DNA of 29,540 nt from a virus: positions 1 through 29,540 of IMG/VR virus record IMGVR_UViG_3300045135_003504; one strand, given 5' to 3'. The position numbers and the translations under genes are program-made. Every line of letters starts with the position of its first letter. The first letter of the stretch is position 1. This document shows positions 3,107 through 27,393 of this stretch, piece after piece. Under the pieces are notes generated by a model that was not told the origin of the DNA, did no database searches, and worked only from the letters and a program-made list of their open reading frames with translations.

Positions 3107-3691
3107 TCATTGGCTATTTGTTGTTTTGGCCGTACTAGCGCCACCGGAAAGTACACCGCCATGAGTGTGTTGATTATAAATATCGCGATCTTCTTTCATG
3201 GATCGGGTGTGATCAGTTATGTCTTTGGTCGACACGATATTGCCGATAACCTTCACATCACCAGTAACAGTTAGCCCACCATCAGCGACTAACTCTGCGG
3301 TAGCACCTGATGGCAATACAGCTTTTAAGCAATGCGCTTTGCGATCATATTCAATCACTGCTCCATCGCCATATTGAGTACGATGTACATCAGCGCTTTG
3401 AGCAATAGCAGGGTGGTCTTTTTGATTGATAGAACCCAGGACCACACCCTGAGTTAACTCACCACTCGGTGACAGAACCAGTACCTGCTCCCCCTTCTCC
3501 AATGACCAAAAGCTCACATCGTTACCCGCACGCTGCACAAGCATTGGTAGCCATGTGGTTGTCAAATCACCAATAGCGACTTTGACCCTGGGTATACTCG
3601 TTTCATAGGATACGTCGATGACTTTTCCCAAAAGAAACATATTGGCAAGACGCCGGTGTAACTCAGAGACTTCAAAGTGCAGATTCATCAT
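3107..3691 (-). CDS. V: Baseplate spike protein V (P2 gpV-like)
   Basis: A ~194-aa membrane-piercing spike protein that forms a trimer at the centre of the baseplate. Residues MNLHFEVSELHRRLANMFLLGKV form the usual N-terminus, followed by an OB-fold region with LPMLVQRAGNDVSFWSLEKGEQVLVLSPSGE (read in two parts) and TQGVVLGSIN. Near the C-terminus the beta-helix ends in QHTHGG, an HxH tip like the one that holds iron in P2 gpV. Two adjacent ATGs at 3691 and 3688 fit the family start; a longer in-frame extension to 3808 would lie wholly within the upstream gene. The chosen start overlaps that gene by about 20 bases. Confidence 0.92.
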   Translation of the reverse strand: MMNLHFEVSELHRRLANMFLLGKVIDVSYETSIPRVKVAIGDLTTTWLPMLVQRAGNDVSFWSLEKGEQVLVLSPSGELTQGVVLGSINQKDHPAIAQSADVHRTQYGDGAVIEYDRKAHCLKAVLPSGATAELVADGGLTVTGDVKVIGNIVSTKDITDHTRSMKEDRDIYNQHTHGGVLSGGASTAKTTNSQ

Positions 3692-12722: not shown

Positions 12723-13064
12723 ATGAGCACACGATGCCGCATCGCCATTAAACATGACAACGGATTATATGAGTCTGTGTACTGCCATTTTGATGGCTAC
12801 GATTACGACAACGGCGTAGGACCAACCCTACGCGAATTTTTCAATTCAGAAGAACAGGCCAAAGCATTCATCGCACTTGGCGACCTATCGTTCATCAGCC
12901 AGGAACAAAACTGTGCTTACCATCGAGATCGCGGCGATGCATGGGACAAAACCAAACCTCAAACATCGCGTTCATTCGAATCTCTATTTAACCTGGCCGA
13001 CCAAACCTGCGCCGGTTACCTGTATGTCTTCGAAGACAATGCATGGCAATCAACAAAGCTATAG
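12723..13064 (+). CDS. Small phage/plasmid accessory protein of unknown function (MSTRxRIAI family)
   Basis: A 113-aa protein transcribed against the late operon. It starts MSTRCRIAIKHDNGLYESVY and continues CHFDGYDYDNGVGPTLREFF; this arrangement, with YCHxDGY and a later ALGDLS, is seen in a widespread family of small phage and plasmid proteins with no known function. No signal peptide or membrane segment is present, and it has four cysteines. The ribosome site is weak (AAAGAA). It forms an apparent two-gene operon with the next gene, 17 bases apart. Its position suggests a moron (cargo) gene. Confidence 0.75.
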   Translation: MSTRCRIAIKHDNGLYESVYCHFDGYDYDNGVGPTLREFFNSEEQAKAFIALGDLSFISQEQNCAYHRDRGDAWDKTKPQTSRSFESLFNLADQTCAGYLYVFEDNAWQSTKL

Positions 13065-13081
13065 ATTAAGGAGTCAACGTC

Positions 13082-13366
13082 ATGGGCACATGGTCTCAAC
13101 CAAACACCACAGCCAAAGCCACTCAACTAAAGCAACTTATGGCCAGCCCCATTATCAAAACTGAGGCGGCCGATCTTCTGTATCATCTATGCGGTGACGA
13201 TGACTTATTCGATAGCTTTGAAGAACTCAGGCCTAACGAAGATGTACGCCTATACGTGCAATTTCATATCAAAGAGATCTTAGAAAACCTTCACCTATCG
13301 CTATTAAGCTGGGATAAAGAAGCTATCAATATTTGTCGTAAATTATTCAATGAGAAATCTAAGTAA
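13082..13366 (+). CDS. Hypothetical small acidic protein, second gene of the plus-strand pair
   Basis: A 94-aa protein not recognised. It starts MGTWSQPNTTAKATQLKQLM and is mostly helical in appearance, with an acidic stretch GDDDLFDSFEELRPNEDV and a C-terminal LHLSLLSWDKEAINICRKLF. AAGGAG eight bases before the ATG supports the start. It lies 17 bases after the previous gene and is followed at once by a rho-independent terminator, so the pair is a self-contained unit. No function is proposed. Confidence 0.7.
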   Translation: MGTWSQPNTTAKATQLKQLMASPIIKTEAADLLYHLCGDDDLFDSFEELRPNEDVRLYVQFHIKEILENLHLSLLSWDKEAINICRKLFNEKSK

Positions 13367-13367
13367 T

Positions 13368-13398
13368 AAAAAAACCGCCCAATAAAAGGCGGCTTTTT
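13368..13398 (+). terminator. Rho-independent terminator of the two plus-strand genes
   Basis: CCGCC at 13375-13379 pairs with GGCGG at 13388-13392 around an 8-base loop, flanked by A6 on the left and T5 (13394-13398) on the right. It starts directly after the stop codon at 13366. The A/T flanks make it potentially bidirectional. Confidence 0.8.
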
Positions 13399-13426
13399 AG
13401 TAGTCGGCTAAGCGTTTTACTGCGAC

Positions 13427-13457
13427 GTAAGGCTGGAGGCCGTCCCAGTCCCCTTAC
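13427..13457. other. Stable imperfect hairpin of unknown role
   Basis: GTAAGG (13427-13432) pairs with CCTTAC (13452-13457), and inside it CTGG (13433-13436) pairs with CCAG (13445-13448), leaving a 3-base bulge on one side and an 8-base loop. There is no T-tract beside it, so it is not a simple terminator. It could be part of a structured RNA or a protein-binding site. The strand cannot be decided. Confidence 0.4.
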
Positions 13458-13537
13458 CAAGAGTTCTCAATATACGTCTCGTTCAATAACTAGTCAATCT
13501 TGATCCAATAGAGATGTATACTCGATTTCCACTACAC

Positions 13538-13567
13538 TTGCCCTTATTCGAACAAGTACCATATAAT
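13538..13567 (+). promoter_or_regulatory. Sigma-70-like promoter for a short RNA
   Basis: TTGCCC at 13538-13543 and a perfect TATAAT at 13562-13567 are 18 bases apart, pointing right. An inverted repeat ACTTG...CAAGT (13536-13540 / 13553-13557) spans the -35 and spacer and could be an operator. Predicted transcription start is near 13574, with no gene on this strand downstream. Confidence 0.5.
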
Positions 13568-13573
13568 ATTTGA

Positions 13574-13634
13574 CAACATACCCGCCAAGCCTATGCCTCT
13601 TTAAACAGGCACGCTCAAATCGTGCGGGTTTTTT
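13574..13634 (+). ncRNA. Candidate ~60-nt small RNA, possibly a C4-type antisense RNA
   Basis: From the predicted start near 13574 the transcript would be about 60 nt and end at T6 (13629-13634). It folds in competing ways: CCCGC (13581-13585) with GCGGG (13624-13628) closing the whole element; TGCCT (13594-13598) with AGGCA (13607-13611); or GCACG (13609-13613) with CGTGC (13621-13625), which directly precedes GGG and the T-tract as a terminator. This layout, a short phage RNA of two stem-loops ending in a terminator, recalls the C4 antisense RNA of P1/P7 and its relatives. That family call is from memory of its architecture and was not tested. It faces the 3' end of the Fic gene. Confidence 0.42.
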
Positions 13635-13657
13635 GCCTATTTATAATAACGATAAAA

Positions 13658-14845
13658 CTAATACGGTTTATCCATTAAAGATATGCGCATAGCATAGTCC
13701 GCTAGCACATAGCTACTGCTACGACCACCAGCATCTGTTTTCTGTAATACGCCTTTACTGACCATGTCATTGATATCTCGCAAAGCGGTATCTGTAGAGC
13801 ACTTGCCAATTTTGGCCCACTTACCAGTTGTCAGTTTTCCTTCAAACCCATCAAGCAATCGATTCATCAGCTTTATCTGACGATCATTCATAGAGACACC
13901 TGACCAATGCTGCCAAAACTTAGCCTTTACTAACACTTCTGTTAGTGCCTCATCGGCCTTTTCCATAGCTCGCGACAAACAGCCTAAATACCATTCAAGC
14001 CAACCAGTAGTATCGACCATACCCTTTTGAGTAAATTCAAGCAGTTTATAGTAATCATCCACCTCAAGTTTAATCTGCGCAGATAAACTATAAAAACGCT
14101 GTGGGCAACGATCAGCCTTTGCTAACGCCATATCAGCTACGGCCCTAGCAATGCGTCCGTTACCATCTTCAAATGGATGTAAAGTTACAAACCAAAGATG
14201 TGCTATGCCCGCTTTTAGTACCGGATCCAGATCATCGTCGGAATTGAACCAAACTAAAAACTCTGCTGTCAACGCACCTAATTGATCTGCAGGTGGTGCC
14301 TCGTAATGAACACGCTCTCTACCAAAAGGCCCTGAGATAACCTGCATCGGGCCATCACTATCATCACGCCATTGTGCAGTTAGGATTTTATTGATACCGC
14401 TATAGCCCGTTGGAAATAATGAAGCATGCCAACCGAACAATCTATCCTCAGTCAAAGGTTCTTCAAACCGACCCGTGGCATCCAAAATCATCTCAACAAC
14501 ACCATCAACGTGTCTATCTGCTGGCACCAAAGCACCTATATCGACACCTAGTCGACGAGCAACTGAAGATCGTACGGTATCAGGATTTAAATGTTCACCT
14601 TCTATCTCACTGGTTTTTAATACGTCCTCAGTGACAACCCTTAAAGCTGCTTCATCACGAAGCCCCATGCCGATGTCATGCATTCGGCCAAGAAGGTGAC
14701 CTTGCTGGCTATGCACTTGCGCGAGGAGGCCAATCAGACGTTTTAAATCAAACTGCCAGTTTGTCCACTCAGTGTGTTTCCAGATATAATTACCGCTATT
14801 CATGCGGTTATTATGCACCCGATTTACCGCAAAGGCAATATTCAC
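13658..14845 (-). CDS. Fic-domain protein with DUF4172-type N-terminus and winged-helix C-terminus
   Basis: A 395-aa Fic protein, probably an AMP-transferase acting on a host or self protein. The N-terminal ~100 residues (IWKHTEWTNWQFDLKRLIGL) are the DUF4172-like part and carry the inhibitory motif TSEIEG at 78-83, whose glutamate blocks ATP in class II Fic proteins. The core motif HPFEDGNGR is complete at 223-231. The last ~80 residues (KLTTGKWAKIGKCSTDTALR, DINDMVSKGVLQK) look like a winged helix. I use the GTG at 14845; an ATG at 14803 is the alternative, and neither has a clear ribosome site. An 11-bp repeat at both starts may be its own operator. Confidence 0.9.
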   Translation of the reverse strand: MNIAFAVNRVHNNRMNSGNYIWKHTEWTNWQFDLKRLIGLLAQVHSQQGHLLGRMHDIGMGLRDEAALRVVTEDVLKTSEIEGEHLNPDTVRSSVARRLGVDIGALVPADRHVDGVVEMILDATGRFEEPLTEDRLFGWHASLFPTGYSGINKILTAQWRDDSDGPMQVISGPFGRERVHYEAPPADQLGALTAEFLVWFNSDDDLDPVLKAGIAHLWFVTLHPFEDGNGRIARAVADMALAKADRCPQRFYSLSAQIKLEVDDYYKLLEFTQKGMVDTTGWLEWYLGCLSRAMEKADEALTEVLVKAKFWQHWSGVSMNDRQIKLMNRLLDGFEGKLTTGKWAKIGKCSTDTALRDINDMVSKGVLQKTDAGGRSSSYVLADYAMRISLMDKPY

Positions 14846-15119: not shown

Positions 15120-15158
15120 ATATTATATCTCTGTTTTTAACACACAGTGAGGTTCACT

Positions 15159-15488
15159 ATGGAAACTGCATTACTTACCACTGAATCTACATTAACCGAT
15201 CGATATCAGACTACGGTGCCTGATGCTGTACGAAAGGCGCTTCACTTAAATAAACGTGAAAAAATTCGCTACACCATTCAACCTGATGGCGATGTACTCT
15301 TGTCTCGCGCGGATAAAGATGAGTCCGACCCCGTACTAGGTAGTTTTTTAACCTTTCTGGCAAATGATATTCAAAACAATCCTCAACGACTGCAAGCAGC
15401 TACTCCTGAACTTGCTAGCCGCATCCAAAGCTTAGTAAGTGATATGGATGTTGACTTGGATGCAGCATTGGATGATGAGGACGAATAA
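15159..15488 (+). CDS. prlF: Antitoxin PrlF (SohA), AbrB/MazE-fold
   Basis: A 109-aa antitoxin of the PrlF family; E. coli PrlF is 111 aa. The N-terminal swapped-hairpin domain is visible in TTESTLTDRYQTTVPDAVRK followed by ALHLNKREKIRYTI, and binds the operator DNA. The acidic C-terminal part (LDAALDDEDE) should wrap the toxin. I use the ATG at 15159 with GTGAGG upstream; a GTG at 15147 is possible but adds only four residues. It is followed two bases later by yhaV. Together the pair stabilises the element and may respond to stress by protease loss of PrlF. Confidence 0.93.
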   Translation: METALLTTESTLTDRYQTTVPDAVRKALHLNKREKIRYTIQPDGDVLLSRADKDESDPVLGSFLTFLANDIQNNPQRLQAATPELASRIQSLVSDMDVDLDAALDDEDE

Positions 15489-15490
15489 TT

Positions 15491-15991
15491 TTGCCAGACC
15501 AGACCAATCTCGTGATCAATGGGTGGACCATCTATCTCCACCCACTGATCATTGATGAACTAGACACCCTTATCTCAAAAGTCGAAACCTTAAAAGAAAA
15601 GGACCCTGATAAATACACCAGCAAAAATGTAACAAAGCGTCTAGCTGCAATCGACAAATTAATATTTGATGTTATTCCTCAAGACCCGACTAAACCTGTG
15701 TACCGTCAAGGCGATACTTTAGGGAATGATCACAAGCATTGGTTTCGAGCCAAATTTTTCCAGCAATATCGATTATTTTTTCGGTTTGATACTACTTCAA
15801 AAATAATTGTATTTGCATGGGTTAATGATGAAAATAACAAACGTGCTTATGGCAGCAAATCTGATGCCTACCGCGTCTTTGAAAAAAAGCTTAAATCCGG
15901 CAACCCTCCCGATGATTGGGACCAGTTACTGAAGGAAACTAAGCTTGATCTTAAGCGTATGCAGGCAACTGTAGGCAAACTTAAAAAATAA
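15491..15991 (+). CDS. yhaV: Toxin YhaV, ribosome-dependent mRNA interferase
   Basis: A 166-aa YhaV toxin (E. coli protein 154 aa), a RelE-superfamily RNase that cuts mRNA. Alignment by eye is clear: NGWTIYLHPLI, KVETLKEKDPDKY, AAIDKLIFDVIPQDPTKPVYRQGDTLG (in parts), FRAKFFQQYRLFFRFD, VFAWVNDENNKRAYGSKSDAYRVF and KSGNPPDDWDQL. The start is TTG at 15491, supported by GAGG ten bases upstream and by the homologue's N-terminus; no in-frame ATG lies before the conserved NGW. The open frame shows no damage, so the toxin should be active. Its stop is 7 bases from the converging methylase stop. Confidence 0.94.
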   Translation: MPDQTNLVINGWTIYLHPLIIDELDTLISKVETLKEKDPDKYTSKNVTKRLAAIDKLIFDVIPQDPTKPVYRQGDTLGNDHKHWFRAKFFQQYRLFFRFDTTSKIIVFAWVNDENNKRAYGSKSDAYRVFEKKLKSGNPPDDWDQLLKETKLDLKRMQATVGKLKK

Positions 15992-26824: not shown

Positions 26825-27220
26825 TCAACAACCAATAGCATATGAGTTATGCCGTAACCATATTGCAAAATCCTCTTTACTCCAGATATTGGTTGCAATA
26901 TTGACCCATACCTCAATGGCTTCGTCTTCAGTTGTCTCGAGACGATATCCATTAATACGAAGCATTGCATCAGTCGTGTAATATGAAGTGCGTTTGTTTG
27001 CATTTGCAAATGCATGCGCCTTAGCGATATGCCAGCCTACTGCAGATGCAATATCAAATATATCTGGATTTTCTAAATAGGCATGCGCGACGCCTCCCTG
27101 CTTCAAAGCAGACTCCAAGGCGCCGACATCTAATATATGCGATTGTTCTTTAGGCGTCAGACCAATACAAGCTTCATGGATTTCAAGTACTCGCTCGAAT
27201 GTAACGTATACTATTTCCAT
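26825..27220 (-). CDS. doc: Doc-like toxin (Fic-fold kinase, death-on-curing family)
   Basis: A 131-aa Doc toxin; P1 Doc is 126 aa and phosphorylates EF-Tu to stop translation. The Fic-type motif is HAFANANKR at 69-77, with Asn in place of the usual Asp at the fifth position, which also occurs in many Doc proteins. Other family parts are TFERVLEIHEACIGLTP at the N-terminus, ALESALKQGG and IFDIASAVGWHIAKAHAF, and RINGYRLETTEDEAIEV. The ATG at 27220 shares its A with the stop of the upstream small gene (TAATG), so the pair is tightly coupled. It lies at the head of the early region, on the same strand. Confidence 0.93.
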   Translation of the reverse strand: MEIVYVTFERVLEIHEACIGLTPKEQSHILDVGALESALKQGGVAHAYLENPDIFDIASAVGWHIAKAHAFANANKRTSYYTTDAMLRINGYRLETTEDEAIEVWVNIATNIWSKEDFAIWLRHNSYAIGC

Positions 27221-27393
27221 TAAACTTTGGACAGTGCCATCAGGACCTCTTTACGCTCTTCAAGTATTTTTTGAACAACGTCGTCCATCGCTTTGACAGG
27301 ATCAGTTTTTGAAGGACAAGCGATACCGTGCCCTTTAGGCAAGTCTTTTCTACGATACTGAACGTTGGTATGCTTTTCTGCTAAATTATTCAT
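27220..27393 (-). CDS. 57-aa partner of Doc, likely antitoxin
   Basis: A short gene starting MNNLAEKHTNVQYRRKDLPK and ending VVQKILEERKEVLMALSKV. GGAGG sits four bases before the ATG at 27393, and its TAA overlaps the Doc ATG, so its expression is coupled to the toxin. It does not show the Phd/YefM N-terminal DNA-binding fold and is shorter than Phd (73 aa). Its C-terminal helix (AMDDVVQKILEERKEVLMAL) could be the Doc-binding part, as in Phd. A different antitoxin class or a truncated form are both possible. Confidence 0.75.
   Translation of the reverse strand: MNNLAEKHTNVQYRRKDLPKGHGIACPSKTDPVKAMDDVVQKILEERKEVLMALSKV

Follow-up and report, generated by a model that had tools for sequence, protein, structure and literature searches.

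A solitary abiF-family RNA in a virus contig: a candidate RNA antitoxin without its abiF gene

The RNA locus and its surroundings

The window, by which we mean the whole stretch of DNA that was analysed, is a viral contig 29,540 bases long. It is a fragment in which terminase genes are present and other reading frames look like portal and tail genes. The terminase matched those of the viral contigs L137 and L138 at 74% and 71%, respectively, and relatives in gammaproteobacterial genomes at 56–59%. A locus for a short structured RNA lies in the same cargo block as a type II toxin–antitoxin pair (Table 1), and the adjoining genes encode a Fic protein and the unknown 94-aa and 113-aa proteins. 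In L137 the methylase and small terminase genes are adjacent and the cargo block with the RNA is missing between them. Direct BLAST of the RNA region in phages gave only a weak match, which was located at the upstream terminator.

Table 1. Positions of the RNA, its signals and stems, and neighbouring features of the window
Feature	Position	Strand	Basis and remarks
Two small cargo genes, 113 aa (phrog_1987) and 94 aa (unknown)	12723–13366	+	own terminator at 13369–13398
Hairpin-like sequence GTAAGGCTGG...CCAGTCCCCTTAC	13425–13452	+	between upstream terminator and RNA promoter
-35 box TTGCCC	13538–13543	+	sequence
-10 box TATAAT	13562–13567	+	18-nt spacer from TTGCCC; ends 13 nt before RNA stem
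Predicted transcript (short leader, abiF RNA, T-run)	13573–13634	+	inferred from promoter and terminator
Stem-loop RNA	13581–13628	+	sequence/fold
P1 5' arm CCCGCC	13581–13586	+	pairs with 13622 and 13624–13628; with the T-run also forms the terminator
Invariant core, AAGCCU part	13587–13592	+	
P2 5' arm AGC	13588–13590	+	pairs with 13613–13615
P3 apical hairpin TGCCT-(CTTTAAAC)-AGGCA	13594–13611	+	covarying part of the family
Invariant core, GCUCAAAU part	13613–13620	+	P2 3' arm and single-stranded bulge
T6 of intrinsic terminator	13629–13634	+	sequence
Fic protein with DUF4172 domain	13658–14845	-	domain match; convergent to the RNA
PrlF–YhaV type II toxin–antitoxin pair	15147–15991	+	domain match; same cargo block as the RNA
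Doc-like Fic protein (131 aa) and the small reading frame ahead of it	26825–27393	-	57-aa open reading frame directly upstream

The preliminary description of this DNA had placed a promoter, a structured RNA of about 60 nt and a terminator, with no gene, at 13538–13634 of the + strand. This arrangement was confirmed: TTGCCC and TATAAT are separated by 18 nt, the stem-loop is followed by T6, and no open reading frame of at least 50 aa overlaps the locus on the + strand. The predicted RNA is better folded than its shuffled versions (z = -2.6). Promoter-like sites alone were near chance in the region (8 seen against 5.0 expected). A sigma-70 site scoring at least 9/12 at such a distance before the stem was found in 64% of the copies linked to an AbiF gene, compared with 1% of background positions. 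The site ahead of the window RNA scores 10/12, its spacing from the -10 box to the stem is that of Pseudomonas abiF loci, and the promoter is in register with those of AbiF-linked loci.

Two minor features of the window were also recorded. The Doc-like Fic protein, together with the small reading frame upstream of it, is probably a second toxin–antitoxin pair. The hairpin-like sequence ahead of the RNA promoter was without an Rfam match and folded no better than chance.

Family and fold of the window RNA

AbiF is a widespread abortive-infection ribonuclease and has been proposed as the ancestor of Cas13. Rfam at gathering thresholds returned zero matches across the window. Under relaxed limits, in a search of 311 bases, the abiF RNA family (RF03085) matched at 13581–13629 (+) with 34.6 bits and E = 8.5e-5, just below the gathering score of 37. 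All consensus letters displayed in the alignment were identical in the window RNA, which departed from RF03085 in its apical loop (20 versus 9) and in one U inserted before GCGGG. In a calibration, RNAs directly preceding abiF in Halopseudomonas, Vreelandella, Oceanisphaera and Marinomonas scored 34.6–34.9, so that the sub-threshold score is a trait of the long-loop gammaproteobacterial form.

A search with a pattern of conserved letters yielded 38 viral and 92 bacterial stretches. The covariance model R1, trained only on the 49 distinct RNAs located ahead of an AbiF gene, matched the window over 13581–13634 with 66.9 bits and E = 4.6e-18. In the alignment of those 49 RNAs, P1 and P2 are invariant by construction and the apical helix was left unconstrained by the search pattern; this helix held 57 double-change cells versus 19 in shuffles (0/500), and sliding its partners abolished the covariation signal. 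The outer stem was judged in the viral relatives, where 16 of the 34 distinct combinations of P1 arms pair at three or more positions, whereas 1000 shuffles gave 5.0 on average and at most 12; this indicates that this stem is kept by compensatory change. Lack of a match to RNA models and lack of compensatory changes in the stems were two of three outcomes named at the outset as speaking against the RNA; a match and such changes were found, in favour of a real RNA.

The conserved fold consists of an outer stem and two inner stems. In the window RNA the pairing probabilities were 0.91–1.00 for P1 and P2, apart from the innermost P1 pair (0.46), and 0.97–1.00 for P3. The invariant core AAGCCU...GCUCAAAU is present. 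The model match, the structure of P1, P2 and apical hairpin, the core, the promoter spacing and the intrinsic terminator are all traits of abiF RNA, and judged by its sequence the window RNA belongs to family RF03085. In the abiF RNA bulge, nucleotides C32 and U38 block AbiF activity (PMC12737573). Going by spacing, these two positions would fall in the GCUCAAAU core, so that this core, intact in the window RNA, probably contains the nucleotides responsible for blocking the active site of AbiF.

It had been proposed that the RNA resembles C4 antisense RNA (RF01695), and its general look, that of a short structured phage RNA with alternative stems, agrees with this. A C4-type RNA can nevertheless practically be dismissed, since no C4 match appeared at E values up to 10 or, within the window, at the gathering threshold, and the full set of conserved abiF RNA letters is present. 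The proposed switch between stems fared no better: GCACG/CGTGC occurs as sequence, with a pairing probability of 0.00 and no covariation in relatives. An antisense target inside the window found no support either, the longest match there being 10 nt. What stands of the preliminary description is that a phage carries a small regulatory RNA as a separate unit, with a promoter and terminator of its own and probably with its target elsewhere; the family is RF03085 and the target would be the protein AbiF, not an antirepressor mRNA.

Some variants of the family were noted in passing. The A–U pair of P2 is replaced by C–G (ACGCC...GCGCA) at 2501–2536 of L135 and 7020–7061 of L248, that is, in Rhizobium phage RHEph21 and a gammaproteobacterial genome. 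The phage contigs L213 and L214 carry a second, diverged abiF-like motif immediately before the first, which recalls the two-motif RNA RCd22. The AsC4_1 match (35.0 bits) lies within an annotated open reading frame, was not seen there by model R1 and was kept as doubtful.

abiF RNAs without an AbiF gene

In AbiF-linked loci the abiF gene directly follows the RNA on the same strand. No Abi_2 domain (PF07751) was found in the window record, a 29.5-kb fragment, and no AbiF-like coding remnant was found downstream of the RNA; without a downstream abiF gene the locus was filed as abiF RNA only and not as an AbiF system. The tblastn matches to AbiF at 13529–13648 were rejected as they represent the RNA itself translated in untrimmed frames.

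When the count was restricted to loci with enough downstream sequence, AbiF was missing from 25 of 34 viral loci, the window included, and from 20 of 87 bacterial ones (Fisher p = 5e-7), that is, from about 74% of viral compared with 23% of bacterial contigs with the same motif. Counting distinct RNAs gave 21/26 and 18/63, respectively (p = 1e-5). Orphan abiF RNAs are typical of viruses. A looser pattern, in which the outer stem was freed, gave 61 stem-forming viral matches, and AbiF was present beside two of the matches to this pattern; five stem-passing matches (L173, L176, L179, L187 and L208) were rejected as one repeated sequence with too short a loop. Over whole viral records, Abi_2 was detected in 8 of 38 from the conserved-letter set and in 1 of 44 from the looser set. 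Among 68 scanned proteins neighbouring the orphans, Abi_2 was not one of the 25 most frequent families; these neighbours include major head protein, endolysin and holin. The viral orphans mostly lie within operons and have no promoter of their own, which makes the window copy one of a less common kind.

Isolated phages also carry the RNA. It was detected in Acinetobacter phage Acj61 (58.0 bits), Roseobacter phage CRP-143 (50.8 bits), mycobacteriophage LittleE (49.9 bits) and Rhizobium phage RHEph21 (38.0 bits), and just below the gathering score in Whirlwind, DuncansLeg and VH-5. With the LittleE RNA as a BLAST query, similar sequence was found in 68 Mycobacterium phage records. In three Autographiviridae the RNA lies between genes of the capsid region, and in Acj61 and several mycobacteriophages it is in or near tRNA clusters. 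None of the nine complete phage genomes with the RNA that were checked holds Abi_2; complete genomes with the RNA and no AbiF include Acj61, mycobacteriophages and Autographiviridae. This result, together with the position of abiF directly after the RNA on the same strand in AbiF-linked loci, makes it very unlikely that the window RNA serves, as half of an ordinary toxin–antitoxin pair, an AbiF whose gene lies in the part of the phage that the fragment lacks or elsewhere in the host, although a 29.5-kb fragment would leave room for such a gene.

The positions of the orphans bear on a further explanation, in which the element is a mere terminator, serves RNA stability or regulates some other phage gene, and happens to resemble abiF RNA. 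P1 and the T-run do form a terminator, and orphans often lie 5–22 nt after a phage gene. Several orphans have no T-run, however; a terminator has no need of the AAGCCU...GCUCAAAU core, the model built from abiF-linked RNAs alone matches the window RNA at E = 4.6e-18, and the upstream + strand gene of the window already has a terminator. We regard this explanation as most improbable.

The RNA appears to move between genomes. LittleE and the provirus L183, whose RNA is abiF-linked, have 42 nt in common, which comprise the RNA and a few bases, and the rest of the 6.4-kb L183 stretch shares no further sequence with LittleE. In another set of viral contigs the RNAs are 88–100% identical, and similarity in the adjoining 100 nt drops to noise level on at least one side. 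Conservation between unrelated flanks and the short stretch common to LittleE and L183 indicate that the RNA is transferred and maintained independently of its surroundings. The abiF RNA was not found in L137 or L138, the closest phage relatives of the window found, by the search with the AbiF-only model. Near-identical abiF RNAs with a CGCCCC stem occur in L148, L151, L156, L159, L167, L169, L177, L184, L186, L188, L203, L215 and L217; the flanks of these viral contigs are swapped on either side, which looks like a mosaic or a mobile cassette.

Bacterial contigs also hold orphans, and loss of abiF can therefore leave the RNA behind. The window RNA could accordingly be a relic of a captured abiF locus that lost its toxin gene, functionless or useful only as a spare antitoxin, and its promoter and terminator have the form found at abiF loci. 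We consider this reading unlikely. The window has no AbiF remnant, the Fic gene ending 24 nt past the T-run (at 13658), and all conserved positions of the RNA are intact; the orphans recur in unrelated phages and in compact lytic genomes, are conserved against unrelated flanks, and still pair where their stem sequences differ. A prophage location of the orphans in sampled bacterial genomes was considered and was not supported.

A candidate role in counter-defence

AbiF is a homodimeric HEPN RNase with one RNA bound per monomer (review PMC12737573; structure 8VZ6). RCd22, an abiF RNA, neutralises AbiF by direct binding, both in cis and in trans; changes that break its stems abolish neutralisation and stem swaps that preserve pairing keep activity (PMC12373285). 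Known abiF RNAs (RF03085; RCd22 of C. difficile prophage phi027; PbAbiFr of the PDB 8VZ6 complex) have the consensus letters, P1/P2 fold, GCUCAAAU bulge, promoter position and terminator in common with the window RNA. They differ in lying directly upstream of the abiF gene on which they act in cis as well as in trans; in addition, RCd22 has two motifs and the window RNA one, and the apical hairpin of the window RNA is longer than the Rfam consensus. Since abiF RNA acts in trans and the core is intact in the window, a free phage copy would act as a decoy antitoxin.

It is fairly probable that the window RNA is an abiF-family antitoxin of a phage or prophage without abiF and acts in trans to neutralise AbiF proteins belonging to its host or to competing elements. 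The proposal is grounded in what the sequences show: the RNA belongs to the abiF family and its structure is intact, its promoter is spaced as in abiF loci, AbiF is absent, and such orphans recur in unrelated phages. The sigma-70 promoter would direct constitutive transcription of a short self-terminated RNA, which would fold into the P1–P2–P3 structure bound by AbiF proteins. The RNA would then occupy a matching AbiF, either the host's or one carried by a rival mobile element, the HEPN ribonuclease would stay inactive, and infection or lysogeny would not be aborted, presumably to the benefit of the phage. Of 369 gammaproteobacterial genomes sampled, about 10% carry Abi_2, so that targets for a phage RNA are available; most of the confident RNA matches in this sample adjoin Abi_2.

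The time at which the phage would profit can be seen in two ways. The RNA may serve chiefly the lysogen, as an anti-addiction device by which a prophage silences AbiF that other elements bring in or that resides with them and thus secures the survival of both itself and its host, evasion of defence in lytic growth being secondary. The constitutive-type promoter, unlike the situation of most orphans in phage operons, speaks for this, as do the neighbouring toxin–antitoxin pair and Fic gene in a cargo block missing from the closest relative. The biochemistry would be the same as for a decoy in infection and the timing alone would differ, and many orphans belong to lytic phages (Acj61, Autographiviridae), which form no lysogens. 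We consider a main role in the lysogen rather unlikely; the promoter and the neighbouring PrlF–YhaV and Fic genes fit a benefit in lytic growth or in a lysogen alike.

For the orphans as a group, we lean slightly towards the view that solitary AbiF antitoxin RNAs in many phage lineages (T4-like phages, Autographiviridae, mycobacteriophages and temperate phages such as that of the window) are a common RNA-based counter-defence and an unrecognised class of anti-defence RNA. The window RNA is a newly recognised member of an RNA family that is already known, and RNA mimicry of antitoxins (PMC3475682) and of CRISPR repeats (PMC10651486) is known as well. Pseudo-ToxI, an RNA of phage PhiTE, imitates the RNA antitoxin of a type III system and so stops abortive infection (PMC3475682; PMC5449768). 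The window RNA is likewise a phage copy of an antitoxin RNA; however, ToxN/ToxI is another toxin family with repeat antitoxins, and pseudo-ToxI was expanded in escape mutants whereas the abiF orphans are fixed and widespread. Racr RNA anti-CRISPRs are lone copies, in phages, of an RNA used in host defence, and they capture the defence protein (PMC10651486); they mimic CRISPR repeats and divert Cas proteins, whereas the target of the window RNA would be AbiF. The trait common to both types, a solitary phage copy of a defence RNA with the defence protein absent, is found in the window.

An abiF sRNA of cyanophage S-CREM1 has already been published from an Rfam scan (51.6 bits; PMC9964418). This copy is also phage-borne, but is listed as a predicted sRNA of a lytic cyanophage, and an anti-AbiF role is not proposed in that listing. 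In the searchable literature we found no proposal of orphan abiF RNAs as anti-AbiF agents, though the primary AbiF–Cas13 paper may contain an earlier mention. As a candidate RNA-based anti-defence, the orphan phage form would be a new one. A DNA region of lactococcal phage sk1 reportedly shields phage 712 against AbiF (Rince 2000); phage sk1 has no recognisable abiF RNA, which counts against the decoy proposal. An anti-phage role of AbiF outside Lactococcus has been hard to demonstrate (PMC12373285). If the proposal is correct, phages that keep the AbiF antitoxin RNA alone would argue strongly, if indirectly, for a restriction of phages by AbiF in nature, their RNAs would provide ready-made, short and testable AbiF inhibitors, and AbiF would join the defences beaten by RNA mimicry.

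Two observations on individual carriers of the RNA are added here. In the Legionella loci L093 and L094 the orphan abiF RNA adjoins a gene pair that is probably AbiEi/AbiEii, as judged from family matches pooled across loci. LittleE holds, at 3530–3611 of L132, a sub-threshold match to DUF3800-IV RNA (42.9 bits against 60.7), perhaps another structured RNA kept by phages.
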